From positions 27,655,398 through 27,719,397 of the forward strand of contig CP099841.1 in assembly GCA_030062745.1 (NCBI GenBank): 64,000 nt of DNA, written 5' to 3'. Shown here in pieces: positions 29,294 through 35,200 of the stretch. This DNA comes from Capitulum mitella. Lineage: Eukaryota > Arthropoda > Thecostraca > Pollicipedomorpha > Pollicipedidae. Positions within the stretch are counted from its first letter, which is position 1, and every line of letters starts with the position of its first letter. The notes beneath the pieces are model-generated. The model saw only the letters and a list, made by a program, of their open reading frames with translations, did not search any database and had not been told where the DNA came from. Position numbers and translations under genes: made by a program.

Positions 29294-32200
29294 TTAACGG
29301 TTCGACTTGGCCACGCGCTCCAGCTCGTCCTTCTTCTTGATGGCGTAGCTGTTGGAGGAGCCCTTGGCGGCGTTGATGAGCTCGTCGGCCAGGCACTCGG
29401 CGATCGACTTGATGTTGCGGAAGGCGGCCTCGCGGGCGCCGGTGCAGAGCAGCCAGATGGCCTGGTTGACGCGCCGCAGCGGCGACACGTCCACAGCCTG
29501 CCGACGCACGGCGCCGGCACGGCCGATACGCGTCGAGTCCTCGCGCGGGCCAGACTTGACGATGGCCGTCACCAGCACCTGCAGCGGGTTCTGGGGGCAA
29601 AGGGGACGGACCAGGCGTCAGGCGCGCACGGCTCGGTCCACCACAAACACGGCTCAATACGATGGCAGCAGCCACGCGTCTGATAACGTTGCAACAACGC
29701 GATATTCAGTCCACCTCAATATCCCTTGTTGTGCCTGTTTGACAAGCATAAAAAAGCTGGAAATTAACAGGACCACTTTCCCAGAATCTCATCCTACTTG
29801 TAATCGCCCACAGGCTTGCTCATTAACCGAAATAAAGACGAAACACTCCGCATGGACCTAACGTGAAAGCCTTCACTGTAACTGTGAAGTACTGTCAAAA
29901 ACACACCAGAAGCCTGAAAGGAGCCACATGGGAAACAATGACAACAATAATCATCAGAGATTTTTGGGGAAATGCAGATGAGCGGCCTCAACCCATTTTA
30001 AAGACAAAACTTGGACATAACTACACCAGTACCAGAAGCAGGTTAGTTAAAAAGTGGCAGGACATGCACACGTTGGTCCACACCAAGCATGACTCAAAGG
30101 GTGACTGTAATGGAGAATCTGATAACCTTTGCATCTAAGCACTGTTCAGCATCCCATGAAATGTTTGTGCATAGCCCTGTGTTGCAATGGCCTCAATATT
30201 GGGCCACTGCTAATTTTTCGCAATATGAATGAAATTTGATGAAGGAAGTCACATCCAGCCTACCCTTCCTGACCAAAGTTCACTTGCTGACAATATTTTG
30301 GCAATGGTTTGCCATCATTTACCAATACATTGAACTCAGAGAGCACAGCTCACATTAGGCACCCACATGTCATGTGAGAAAAAGTCTATCATGGTGGTCT
30401 TCACTGTAGCAATCTTACAACAATTTGACACACAAGCAGCTTGATAAGTGCATAACAATACAAACAAACATGGACAGAGCTGCCAGTTCCAACCCTGCAG
30501 TTCCATCAATTATGTCCTTCTCTATGCACCACATTCATATGACAACACTCAAATTTACAGTGCACTGGCATTTATGCAGGCAAACTTTTCATGTCATGCA
30601 AGGTCTGGGAAACAATAACATGTAACATTAGGCTTCATGCCAATCTATTAGCCAATTCTATTATTCCAGACAACCACTTCAATATGCATTGAAATTTGCA
30701 CTACAATGGTATTTAATGCAAACTTTTCAGGGCAGATAATACCTAAGAATCAAAGAAACATAATATCAGGTTTTGTGTCAATTTATGCGAGTGCCATTCC
30801 CAAACAACCATTTAAGGAAGGGAGAACAGCTTTCACTGATAATTTACTTCCCCTCATAAACCCAAAAACAGCAACACCTACAGCACATCAAATTGTACTC
30901 CTTACATTTCCTTGCAGTGCCACAATTTTGTTTTACCCCACACTTATATGCCTTACACACTACCCATTTGTGAAAAAACACCCCAGCAATTTCAAGCTGA
31001 ACTACTGCAAGCATGAGCCATACCACATACTTGTCATGTGCCTGGATACCAATGAAATATAAGTTATCCCCTTTTTAAATCCAACCCTTCACTGATGTCT
31101 GCATGTCACCTGTCCTCTCTAAAATGTTGTGTCCTGTCAGAGCAAAGACCTGCCCAGGTGATGAAACATTTACCCTGGTCAACTCAGAAACAGACACAAA
31201 ACCAGAAGATGAAACATTTACCCTGGTCAACTTTGAAACAGACACAAAACACTCCGAATTCCATCAGCATCCAGGCACACGTCTGTTTGGGTACGACAAC
31301 CATGCACAGCAATGGCGTCACTGCTCACCTCGCCCGTGGTCAGGTGAATGATCTCGAACGCGTGTTTGACGATGCGCACCGCCATCAGCTTCTTGCCGTT
31401 GTTGCGGCCGTGCATCATCAGCGAGTCAGTCAGGCGCTCCACGATTGGGCACTGTGACTTCCTGAACCGCTTGGCCGCGTAGCGTCCAGCCGAGTGGGGC
31501 ATATAGCGTGCGTGGCGCTCCTTCACGGCGATGTAATCCTGCGGGCGGGACGCTGTGTGACTGGGAGGTGGAAGATGACCAGTGTCACGATCCCACAATG
31601 CAGGGATGGGACCAAAAACCAATCACAGGGCCACAATCTATAGCAAACCACAGACAAAACGACAGCCTGTATTCTTCAACAAGGAATGACCAGTCCCAGC
31701 TGCATCACGAGGTCTTGGATGGCACGATCACTGGCCAGTCCTGGCCGGAAAGTGATCGCGGGCTGATCCTGACAAAGACTGTAGTGTGGCATGTGAACTG
31801 GACCACATCGATTTTAGATTTTTCTTCAGAAGAGCATTCCCCCACACACCGTAGCTTGCACTGGACCTTTAACCAATGGAACAAGTTGAATAAAACTGAA
31901 ATTCCTCAAAAATATTTTTCAAGCGCCAGCTTTTTGTTTGAAAGGCCATATTTTGCGGGACCGAGACATTAACATATCCATTGGCATAACCATGCACAAC
32001 AGGAAGATACACATCAGGCACCGTCACCGTTTGTGTCACGCGAAAACTTAGTGTCTGGATGACAGGGTATTGCTAAATGTATTGATAGCATTTGGTATGT
32101 TTAAAACTGGACGTAAATGGTGCATAGGCAACTTGATGTATGGCAAAAGCATTACAGTGAAAATGGAAGGGCCAATACCAGATTGAATATCCTCTGGTGA

Positions 32201-35200
32201 CACAATGATGCAATGGTGATTTCCAGAAAAACTTCAGTTGTCTTTGCTGTCATGTCAATGACGAGAATTTGCCGTTTCTGACAAACACTGGCACTGGGCA
32301 GGCACAAGTCGAAAAGACAGAATGATCTTGGGTATCTGGTGAGAAACGCTGTCTCGTCGCTGCTCTCGGATAGCGTGTCGCACACGGCTCGCCAAAGGGG
32401 TGTAGGTAAAAAGCACAGCAGCACACTGGCAGTTACCAGGGGTTACTGTCATAAAACCACATAAGTCCATTTCTGAGATGCCCAGAACAGGGAGGTGATG
32501 CCACTGGTGCCTGGTGCAGGCAGCTGCACAGTATGTGAGGAGCAGCAAGTTAACACAGTACCGGCCGTACAGCACAGATGTTTTTGTGTTCTATTGTGTA
32601 ACTTAAGTATGCATGATTGATATGTTCCATTGTAAGTTATCTATGCAGCTGGAGTTTTTGGAGAGCCCACTGGATGGTGGCGCGTAGCATTATCATATGG
32701 TATGGTGCAGTGGAGTTGGTGGCTCTGGAAAGATCTGGGTATTTTCCTGTCGTTTCGGCCGTGGACCTTCTTCGGTGCGTCAGGACGTCGGTCGCGGCGG
32801 CTGCCGAGAGCGGACCGTAGCGACAGCCACGCAGCTAGTCCAGACTGTATCTACAATCTTCTCTTGGCAGCTGCCGCGACTACACATCCTGACACAATGA
32901 AGAAGGACCACGGCCAAAACGACAGCAAAATAACCAGCTCTTTCCAGCATTGCCAACTCCACTGTGCCATCCAATATGATAATGTCACAGGCCACCATCC
33001 GGCGGGCTCTACGAGAATTCCAACCGTAATTAAACGTAACAAAACACAGAAACATCTGCGTTGTTCAGCGACACTATCTTCATTTGCCACTCTTCACATG
33101 CTGCACAGGTGCTGGCATCAGCGACGTCACTGGCACCAGCAAAGTACTGGCACCTCAGAAATGGATTAAGTGTCATGATGATACCCCTCTGGTACCTGCT
33201 GGTGTGCAGCTGTTCTTTCTACCTTCTCCCCCATGGCGAGCTGTATGCGTCACGCCATCCGAGAACAGCGACGAAACAGCGTTTGTCACCCAGATACCCC
33301 ACACTGTGTCTTTTGTCTCCTCAACACATGCCTGTCTCCAGTGCCAGTGTTTGTCAGAAATGGCAAATTCTTGTCATTAACACAATACCAAAGGCACCTT
33401 CACTTTTTCTGGAAATCATCATTGCAATGACATGTCATGAAAGGGGACATAACAGTCAAACAATGACCCATCCATTACCACTGCAAGACATTGCCATTCA
33501 CCAAGTTGCATCATATACATCATTTAAAATTTTCATGAAACATACCAAATGCTATCAATGAACTTAACAAGCAACATCCAATCATTCTAAAACTTTGGCC
33601 TATAAAATCATTCTGCCCATAGTTATTTTAATGCTTAGGGAATGCAAAACTTGGCCTTTTGAACAAAAAGGTGGCACTCCAAAACCATTTCTGGAAATTT
33701 CTGTTTTCAATCTTTTACAATGCTTACAGGTATAATGCAAGTTACAGTGCACAGGGAATGCTCTCTGGAACAAAAGCTTAAAATCAATCTGGTCTAATGT
33801 GCACTCCAGAGATGCACCATGACTATCGCGAACACATGTGGTGTGCACCTGGATCAGTACAGCCCCATCTGGCACCAATACTGCTTCTTACACTCTATTT
33901 TAGTGGCAAAAAAGGTTGCTTGTGATTTATCAGATGTACAGATCCTGTCAAAGAAATGTCCATGATACCCTAGTATTCAACTCTCATAGAAGACACACTG
34001 CAATTTTACAGCCATCTAATTACCTACAGGGACCTAAAATGTGCTCATAAAAACTTACAAGTACCTCAGACTAGGTACATTGCAGCACTATTCCCTGCAA
34101 CTTGACATCTTTTGGTGACTGACCTCCAAATAAATCTTGTAATTTACACGACATATTTAACCCTATTCCGGAAGGTTAAAAGGATAGGCCGTTTCCCGGG
34201 GGGGGGGGGGGTTGCCCCCGATATCTCGAGAACTACTTATCCGATTTCATCGCAACAAACGGCAATCGATTTGCCATGACGTGAACTACATTTTTATTAA
34301 AAAAAATTTCAAAATTTTGAAATTTGTGGATACAGGGGGGCAAAAATGTCAAAATGGGGGATACTTTTTGACTTCTTATAACTCCGTTGTTTATGGACCG
34401 ATTTCGATGAAACTGGCATGAATCGAGACATTATGGATAGGGCTTTTACCATGGGTATGCAAATTTGAAATTTTGAGAAAATTCATGGGCATTCACAGGG
34501 TTTCAAAAATAGGGGGATTAGTTTTCTAATAATGGAATGAACAAAAGAGGCCAAAACACTTTTTTAGCTTCTGCTAGTCATGTTATACTAAAGAAGTACA
34601 AATCGCATTACAATGTTTGTATAATGTTAGCATAGGCGGTGCCAGGGACATAAAAAAGGGGGAACTGTCATGGTCACACATTCTTCAGATCAACTTGTCA
34701 TCTTTGACCTTAAATGACCTCCAGTGACCTTGGCATCACTTGCAATGATCTCATGTGCATTCAATATTATCTGTAAACGTTTTTAATCGATTGAATTCAC
34801 TCTATTCCAAAAAATTCATTTTTTTGGCTTTTGCGATATAGGGTACGCGCACTGACATTTTAGGTCATAGCTCCGTGACCCGACCTGATATCAAGCTGAA
34901 ACTTGGTACACAAGTAGAGGGCACCTTTCTACGTCATATATATCCCAAGTTTGGCATTTGAAAAAACGGCGCCGAAATTATTACAAAAAAAAAGATTTTG
35001 ACTTTTGACCTTGACCTGACCTTGTAAAGTGACCTCAGATAAACAAAATTACATATGCACATTGCCCAACTATTTAGCTATACATTCATATAAAGTTTTA
35101 AGTTCTATCTTAAAAACTCTGTTTTTGGCAGACATTTTTCTTTTACCCTCAACATGCCCAAAAATGACCTGACGTGCCTCCCAAAAACGTTGCCTGGCTC

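Follow-up and report, generated by a model that had tools for sequence, protein, structure and literature searches.

Does the long, near-loopless palindrome in an intron of RPS5 of Capitulum mitella represent a hairpin-RNA gene, or a mobile element removed by splicing? The locus was analysed in a window of 64,000 nucleotides (contig CP099841.1), which holds the following features.

29294..29590, minus strand: last coding exon of RPS5, read from the sequence
31329..31538, minus strand: coding exon of RPS5, Pfam Ribosomal_S7 match (E=1.6e-8)
31539..35883, minus strand: RPS5 intron holding the element, 4345 nt, splice junctions read
31791..31798, no strand: left target-site duplication, ATGTGAAC, 7/8 identical to the right copy
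31799..33796, no strand: whole palindromic (foldback) element, 1998 bp, delimited by end alignment, anchored flanks and dispersed copies
31799..32834, plus strand: left arm, in the 25-row group of the arm tree
32835..32838, no strand: CTAG centre, with about 25 weakly pairing bases on either side
32839..33796, minus strand: right arm, in the 33-row group of the arm tree
33797..33804, no strand: right target-site duplication, ATGTGCAC, 8 bp
34185..35370, no strand: second, younger repeat in the same intron, with dispersed copies
35884..36039, minus strand: coding exon of RPS5 with the start codon, read from the sequence

The Ribosomal_S7 match and the minus-strand intron place the palindrome within the RPS5 transcription unit, as the original prediction had it. 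The outer two exons are presumably those of RPS5, which we take from the known sequence of that gene; a longer ORF stretch around 29294..29590, in another frame, had no Pfam match. The second intron repeat has 6956 candidate places in the genome, and its 39 other scored copies are 89–95% identical. Pieces of this repeat were also found within copies of the palindrome. Among the lipoyltransferase relatives listed, the named ones are insects, as expected for an arthropod.

The palindrome had been described as 1.48 kb long, with perfect 22-base outer ends and arms pairing over their full length. It is real but larger. Self-BLAST gave an inverted match over 32070-33570 (70% identity in a gapped alignment, E=0.0) and, farther out, a second one between 31801-31989 and 33611-33794; the inverted alignment extends to 31793-33804, so that the perfect 22-base stretch (32081-32102 / 33538-33559) is present but internal. 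The CTAG centre is where it was predicted to be. The arms align in inverted orientation throughout, but across 902 ungapped columns only 79% of positions agree, and there are 37 gaps, so that the arms are well decayed; the central 50 bases or so pair weakly, though the arms almost touch. Two arms of about 1 kb make up most of the 1998 bp element, which is the hallmark of Foldback elements. The longest Watson-Crick run between them is 22 bp, or 34 bp (at 32344) once G-U pairing in the RPS5 sense is counted. The sense strand has a predicted fold of −1050.7 kcal/mol, whereas 12 dinucleotide-shuffled versions average −597.0 (SD 9.1); by this prediction the RNA of the RPS5 copy can still fold into a hairpin.

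Continuation of the palindrome past its ends was rejected, the flanks aligning no better than shuffles. Protein coding was likewise rejected: the two ORFs within the palindrome (173 and 177 aa) are regarded as chance, one of them matching a Pfam birnavirus polymerase model weakly (17 bits, below the cut-off of 25). No relatives of a palindrome ORF were found at E<=10 among 13 candidates, and the arm mismatches gave no 3-base period (lag-3 correlation −0.014).

The suggestion that the palindrome belongs to a dispersed family was borne out. The genome holds 151 candidate places, of which 40 were scored, giving 137 matching pieces; among the matches listed, the RPS5 copy is 67–83% identical to other copies. 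Pairing arms are present in 32 of the 38 fetched copies. Four copies (L028, L029, L035, L041) have an inner hairpin only, the other arm of L028 sitting in L047, and two (L043 and L046) are without a self-inverted match. The copies share common ends: the RPS5 copy runs from TGGACC to GGTCTA, and the family end is TAGACCGGATCGATTTTAGAC. A 27-base end motif, with up to 3 mismatches, had 92 matches in the genome and its reversed control none. Convergent end pairs consisted of one G-type and one C-type end in 14 of 16 cases, or 11 of 13 once the three pairs (L010, L013, L044) that are also among the 21 elements of the arm tree are left aside.

Target-site duplications were found at about half of the testable copies. 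Across 15 elements with unrelated flanks, the putative 8-bp duplications matched at a mean of 5.27 of 8 positions, compared with 3.00 in cross-pairs (p=1e-5, or p=5e-5 allowing for choice among 49 registers, both values being the floor of the permutations). The register (2,2) was the best of the 49 for 8-mers, while other lengths were scanned for exact matches only. Eight of the 15 independent elements match at 6 or more of the 8 positions; the other seven have no clear duplication, which counts against a transposon. Dispersed copies bounded by such duplications are characteristic of Foldback-like elements.

If the palindrome had been made in RPS5, its two arms should be each other's closest relatives. 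Instead, the arm tree has two groups, and each of the 21 elements with two long arms contributes one arm to either group. When shorter arms are included, this split holds for 28 of 29 elements; L023 is unsplit, and in the shorter-arm tree the own arms of one element are sisters. Support for the two groups is 92/83, below the tool's star. Distances agree with the tree: own arms differ by 0.353 and opposite arms of different copies by 0.352, compared with 0.280 and 0.294 for arms of the same side. Since the arms fall into two old groups, the palindrome most likely predates the family's spread and was passed on whole with each copy, judging from these sequences. The original prediction had called it 'recent or kept'; recency finds no support, since the palindrome seems to be the form in which a transposon family was founded.

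The second half of that claim, that the copy is kept, fares little better. Among the 21 elements the RPS5 copy has the lowest arm identity (0.715, compared with 0.719–0.785 in the others) and the largest own-arm distance (0.451). Its branches in the arm tree rank 3 of 25 (left) and 1 of 33 (right), and its right arm is the farthest from the ancestral node of its 33-row group. G-U pairs slightly exceed A-C mismatches in the RPS5 sense (64 and 44, p=0.067). Same-letter double changes number 15, against 11.0 ± 3.2 in simulations that model CpG and site rates (p=0.15), which is no clear excess of pairing-preserving changes. A cruder comparison with the arms of other copies points the other way (15, against a mean of 6.3 and a maximum of 10); it is also raised in copy L011 (14, maximum 11).

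Same-letter changes are in excess across the family, with 131 between own arms and about 101 ± 9 in cross-pairs, and the excess persists outside CpG (115 and 89.0 ± 8.3). For letters occurring in no more than two arms there is no excess (4 and 2.5 ± 1.6), whereas for letters in up to four arms it is clear (27 and 15.5 ± 4.0, 0 of 300 shuffles). Three sources are possible for such a pattern: arms that exchanged sequence, subfamilies left unresolved, and selection on pairing. We favour the first two, with any exchange being rare, while selection on pairing within the family is possible. As for the RPS5 copy, little suggests that it is kept, and it has decayed without clear signs of constraint.

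More of its CpG positions have been lost than in other copies: 45 of 126 (36%) are changed, compared with 508 of 3383 (15%) in its relatives (p=2.5e-8). Most simply, this is the pattern that germline methylation would cause. Against such a reading, copy L042 also has CpG-poor flanks (0.48), yet its CpG loss is not raised (16/114), and two of the three RPS5 exons are CpG-rich (1.2). CpG loss in an insertion of this kind, with its repeat relatives as controls, may offer a way to read past germline methylation.

Taken together, these results point, with a probability of about 0.9, to a non-autonomous, Foldback-like family of DNA transposons, of which the RPS5 palindrome is an old, neutrally decaying copy. 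The proposal that the hairpin feeds Dicer, yields siRNAs against its own element family and is kept for that purpose is very unlikely. Its RNA does fold far better than the shuffles, the dispersed family would supply targets, and the G-U excess and the cruder count of double changes lean the same way. Hairpin-RNA loci, however, are marked by near-perfect or maintained pairing, whereas this copy is the most decayed of 21, sits on long branches, shows no clear excess of preserved pairs once CpG and site rates are modelled, and among the matches listed is no more than 83% identical to any would-be target. With about 21% mismatches, 37 gaps and no Watson-Crick run beyond 22 bp, the hairpin would be a weak Dicer candidate. 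Scarcely more probable is the broader idea that copies in strongly transcribed genes, as in this intron, give diced or edited double-stranded RNA that keeps the family silent; if true, housekeeping introns would be a source of transposon-directed siRNAs.

Passive double-stranded RNA, edited by ADAR or occasionally diced but with no selected function, is a tentative possibility that is compatible with a decaying Foldback-like transposon. ADAR tolerates imperfect duplexes, and the strong predicted fold and the 34-bp stretch could provide one, but splicing of the RPS5 intron is presumably rapid. That the palindrome is a local inverted duplication or an artefact of assembly can be set aside almost entirely: near-loopless palindromes can come from template switching or chimeric reads, but these arms are far from identical, related sequence occurs at 38 other places fetched, and 8-bp duplications flank the copies.

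For the neutrally decaying transposon, the history may have run as follows. A founder element would have turned palindromic first, and the family would have spread afterwards. Its ends would have been recognised by a transposase provided in trans, probably one of the hAT superfamily, which moved the whole hairpin and left 8-bp duplications. One copy inserted in the RPS5 intron, where splicing would remove it, and then presumably decayed neutrally, its CpGs disappearing faster than those of other copies; germline methylation of the surrounding DNA would be the simplest reason. On this view, double-stranded RNA in the RPS5 pre-mRNA, if any, would be a by-product. A testable history thus replaces the reading of the palindrome as an RNA hairpin gene.

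The family probably belongs to the hAT superfamily. hAT duplications follow the motif nTnnnnAn and hAT termini the motif YARNG. The duplications here have the 8-bp length of hAT elements; out of 16, 10 carry a T as second base and 14 an A as seventh (counts without a background control), and the family end TAGAC agrees with YARNG at 4 of 5 positions, the last base differing. Non-autonomous hAT elements have short terminal repeats, in contrast to the arms of about 1 kb here. The genome gave 54 Dimer_Tnp_hAT matches (150 of 211 candidates scored). Six of these loci, chosen for long open frames, were read, and none had a hAT transposase with TAGACCGGATCGATTTTAG ends; two end in CAG(G/T)GGCG(A/G)CGGA, unlike the palindrome family. 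Compared by eye, the 92 family ends are all more than 5 kb away from each of the 54 matches. With no transposase tying the family to hAT, these Foldback-like elements could conceivably come from a different superfamily that makes 8-bp duplications, such as P, to which Galileo belongs, though this is the less favoured assignment. For Galileo, the duplication is 7–8 bp long with consensus GTATTAC (PMC4168063), which the duplications here, with their T2 and A7, do not resemble. We regard the palindromes as a new family of a known kind; no claim is made that it is unpublished, a family name not having been searched for.

Drosophila-type hairpin-RNA (esiRNA) loci (see PMC5392987) have in common with the RPS5 palindrome a long inverted repeat in a transcript, but here the pairing has decayed. 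Closer are FB and Galileo of Drosophila: they too consist mostly of very long inverted repeats, occur as dispersed copies with short target-site duplications, and vary in their inner structure. The present family differs from them in its 8-bp duplication motif, in the lack of a transposase with family ends at the six hAT loci read, and in arms that meet with almost no middle. Its two arm lineages suggest a palindrome that travelled intact rather than one rebuilt by hairpin-primed copying every time it jumped, and such separate lineages are a useful constraint on how Foldback elements propagate.

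The palindrome in the RPS5 intron is most readily explained, with a probability of about 0.9, as an old copy of a non-autonomous, Foldback-like DNA transposon family that was palindromic before it spread and is decaying neutrally at this site; confidence is slightly reduced because the arms of one other copy, L023, are not split in the arm tree. The gene lies on the minus strand, and the features concerned are:

36039-35884, minus strand: start-codon exon of RPS5, ending ...SLQ and followed by a GT donor
31538-31329, minus strand: next RPS5 exon, starting DYIAVKE after an AG acceptor (Pfam Ribosomal_S7, E = 1.6e-8)
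31791-31798 and 33797-33804: target-site duplication of the window copy, ATGTGAAC / ATGTGCAC, 7/8 identical
34185-35370: second repeat, 1.18 kb, young, with ends TTTAACCCTATTCC/GGAATAGGGTTAAA

The splice donor and acceptor of these exons delimit the intron as 31539-35883. The start-codon exon and the last exon are presumed to belong to RPS5 from their likeness to RPS5 sequence; the open reading frame stretch from the last-exon region gave no Pfam match.

The original prediction placed a near-loopless palindrome at 32081-33559. Self-comparison of the window confirmed the palindrome (main inverted match, 32070-33570) and its CTAG centre (32835-32838), but its size had been understated: an outer inverted match pairs 31801-31989 with 33611-33794, and the full arm alignment spans 31793 to 33804, with 79% identity over 902 ungapped columns and with 14 and 23 gaps on the two sides. 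Past 31793 and 33804 the flanks aligned no better than shuffled sequences. The perfect 22-base stretch thought to form the outer ends is present, but is located within the arms. Three more, shorter palindromes occur in the window (45802-46020, 48280-48361 and 8945-9021), none with a BLAST match to that of the RPS5 intron.

With the palindrome as query, the whole genome (477 Mb, 16 contigs) gave 151 candidate places, and the 40 scored held 137 matching pieces. These were merged by eye into 39 places including the window, and the other 38 (L-numbers) were fetched. All 38 match the window element and 32 have pairing arms, while L028, L029, L035 and L041 show an inner hairpin only, and L043 and L046 have no self-inverted match. 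The second arm of L028 sits in L047, past an interrupting repeat. Simple palindromes of about 2.0 kb resembling the window copy are found at L009, L010, L011, L013 and L014; in a form of about 2.45 kb (e.g., L016, L018, L021) the centre is doubled into a pair of small inner hairpins separated by a spacer of about 115 bp. Eight copies (L022, L024, L031, L034, L037, L038, L039 and L042) have flanking sequence in common, as judged by eye, so the palindrome, once inserted, was carried along and multiplied within another repeat.

Alignment of 61 ends from 38 elements gave the family end TAGACCGGATCGATTTTAGACTTTT(G/C)TTC, which was not recognisable in L046. A 27-base version, allowing at most three mismatches, has 92 matches in the genome and none with a reversed control. 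Both ends were recognised in 23 elements (22 fetched plus the window), and 15 were tested after the eight with common flanks were set aside. The octamers flanking the terminal TA on its outer side matched between left and right ends at a mean of 5.27/8, against 3.00 for cross-pairs (p = 1e-5, or 5e-5 allowing for the register having been picked after inspecting the data as the best of 49 tried). The match was at least 6/8 in eight of the 15 elements, and lower in seven.

The arms themselves argue against the palindrome having been made anew with every transposition. Of 66 arm segments, 58 are 450 bases or longer; these form a main tree with two groups, one of 25 rows and one of 33 (support 92/83, unstarred), and every one of the 21 elements with both arms in it contributes one arm to each group. 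On average an element's own arms are 0.353 apart, as distant as opposite arms taken from different copies (0.352) and more so than same-side arms from different copies (0.280 and 0.294). When all 66 segments are included, one branch separates the arms of 28 of 29 elements, the exception being L023, and in one element the two arms are sisters of each other, so occasional arm-to-arm exchange may occur. The end motifs agree with the tree: among 16 convergent end pairs at most 5 kb apart, 14 combine a G-type with a C-type end, one is C/T and one C/C, and G-type with C-type pairs still make up 11 of 13 once the three elements shared with the tree (L010, L013 and L044) are left out. At 573 of 612 columns the two arm groups have the same majority letter, which points to a founder that was an almost perfect palindrome and was copied whole.

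The suggestion that the window copy is recent or kept found no clear support. Its arms are the least alike of 21 (71.5% over 594 multiple-alignment columns of the outer arms; others, 71.9-78.5%), and their tree distance, 0.451, is the largest. In the RPS5 sense there are 64 G-U versus 44 A-C mismatches (p = 0.067). Both arms have changed to the same letter at 15 sites, compared with 11.0 ± 3.2 in simulations with site-specific and CpG rates (p = 0.15), although a cruder comparison with other copies' arms, with a mean of only 6.3 and a maximum of 10, does show an excess. The sequence gives no clear sign of maintenance by selection. Across the family there are 131 such sites versus about 101 ± 9, and the excess persists outside CpG; it is not seen for letters present in two arms or fewer and is clear for those present in up to four, and possible sources are subfamily structure, arm-to-arm exchange or selection on pairing.

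Decay is most marked at CpG. Of ancestral CpG positions, 45/126 have changed in the window copy and 508/3383 in the 56 remaining rows (p = 2.5e-8), with little difference at non-CpG positions (157/1077 versus 3749/30196, p = 0.04). CpG observed/expected is 0.28-0.34 in RPS5 introns outside repeats, 0.59 in the palindrome and 0.81 in the second repeat. This order agrees with the youth of the second repeat, which has 6956 candidate places, is 89-95% identical among 40 scored copies, and has pieces inside three palindrome copies (L024, L039 and L028/L047). On the simplest reading, the surroundings would be methylated in the germline and each insertion would have been losing CpG since arrival. Simple gene-body methylation fits less well: two of three RPS5 coding exons have a ratio of 1.2, CpG-poor bins also lie beyond the coding span (26-27 and 43-45 kb), and L042 has CpG-poor flanks (0.48), yet its loss is not raised (16/114). 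Over the window, CpG is nearly absent from the 1-kb bins 26001-27000, 30001-31000, 36001-37000, 39001-40000 and 44001-45000 (0.02-0.08), and some adjoining bins are near 1; this sharp mosaic would be consistent with part of the window being strongly methylated in the germline.

For the element's sense strand the predicted folding energy is -1050.7 kcal/mol, versus -597.0 ± 9.1 for 12 shuffles, with a longest Watson-Crick run of 22 bp (34 bp counting G-U). Dicer or ADAR may act on this predicted hairpin RNA: passive editing is possible, a selected siRNA function unlikely.

The duplications indicate that the family probably belongs to the hAT superfamily. hAT duplications have T at position 2 and A at position 7, and in raw counts the better duplications here have this T in 10 of 16 copies and this A in 14 of 16. 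There were 54 hAT-dimerisation matches among 150 scored of 211 candidates, so hAT transposases exist in the genome. None of six hAT loci read has family ends, two having hAT-type ends of different sequence, and, as compared by eye, the 92 family ends are all more than 5 kb away from each of the 54 matches. The transposase loci L052 and L055, with 8-bp duplications and ends CAG(G/T)GGCG(A/G)CGGA, probably represent a separate hAT family. Galileo, the nearest of the described Foldback-like elements considered, belongs to the P superfamily and has the duplication consensus GTATTAC (PMC4168063). The RPS5-intron family does not share this consensus.
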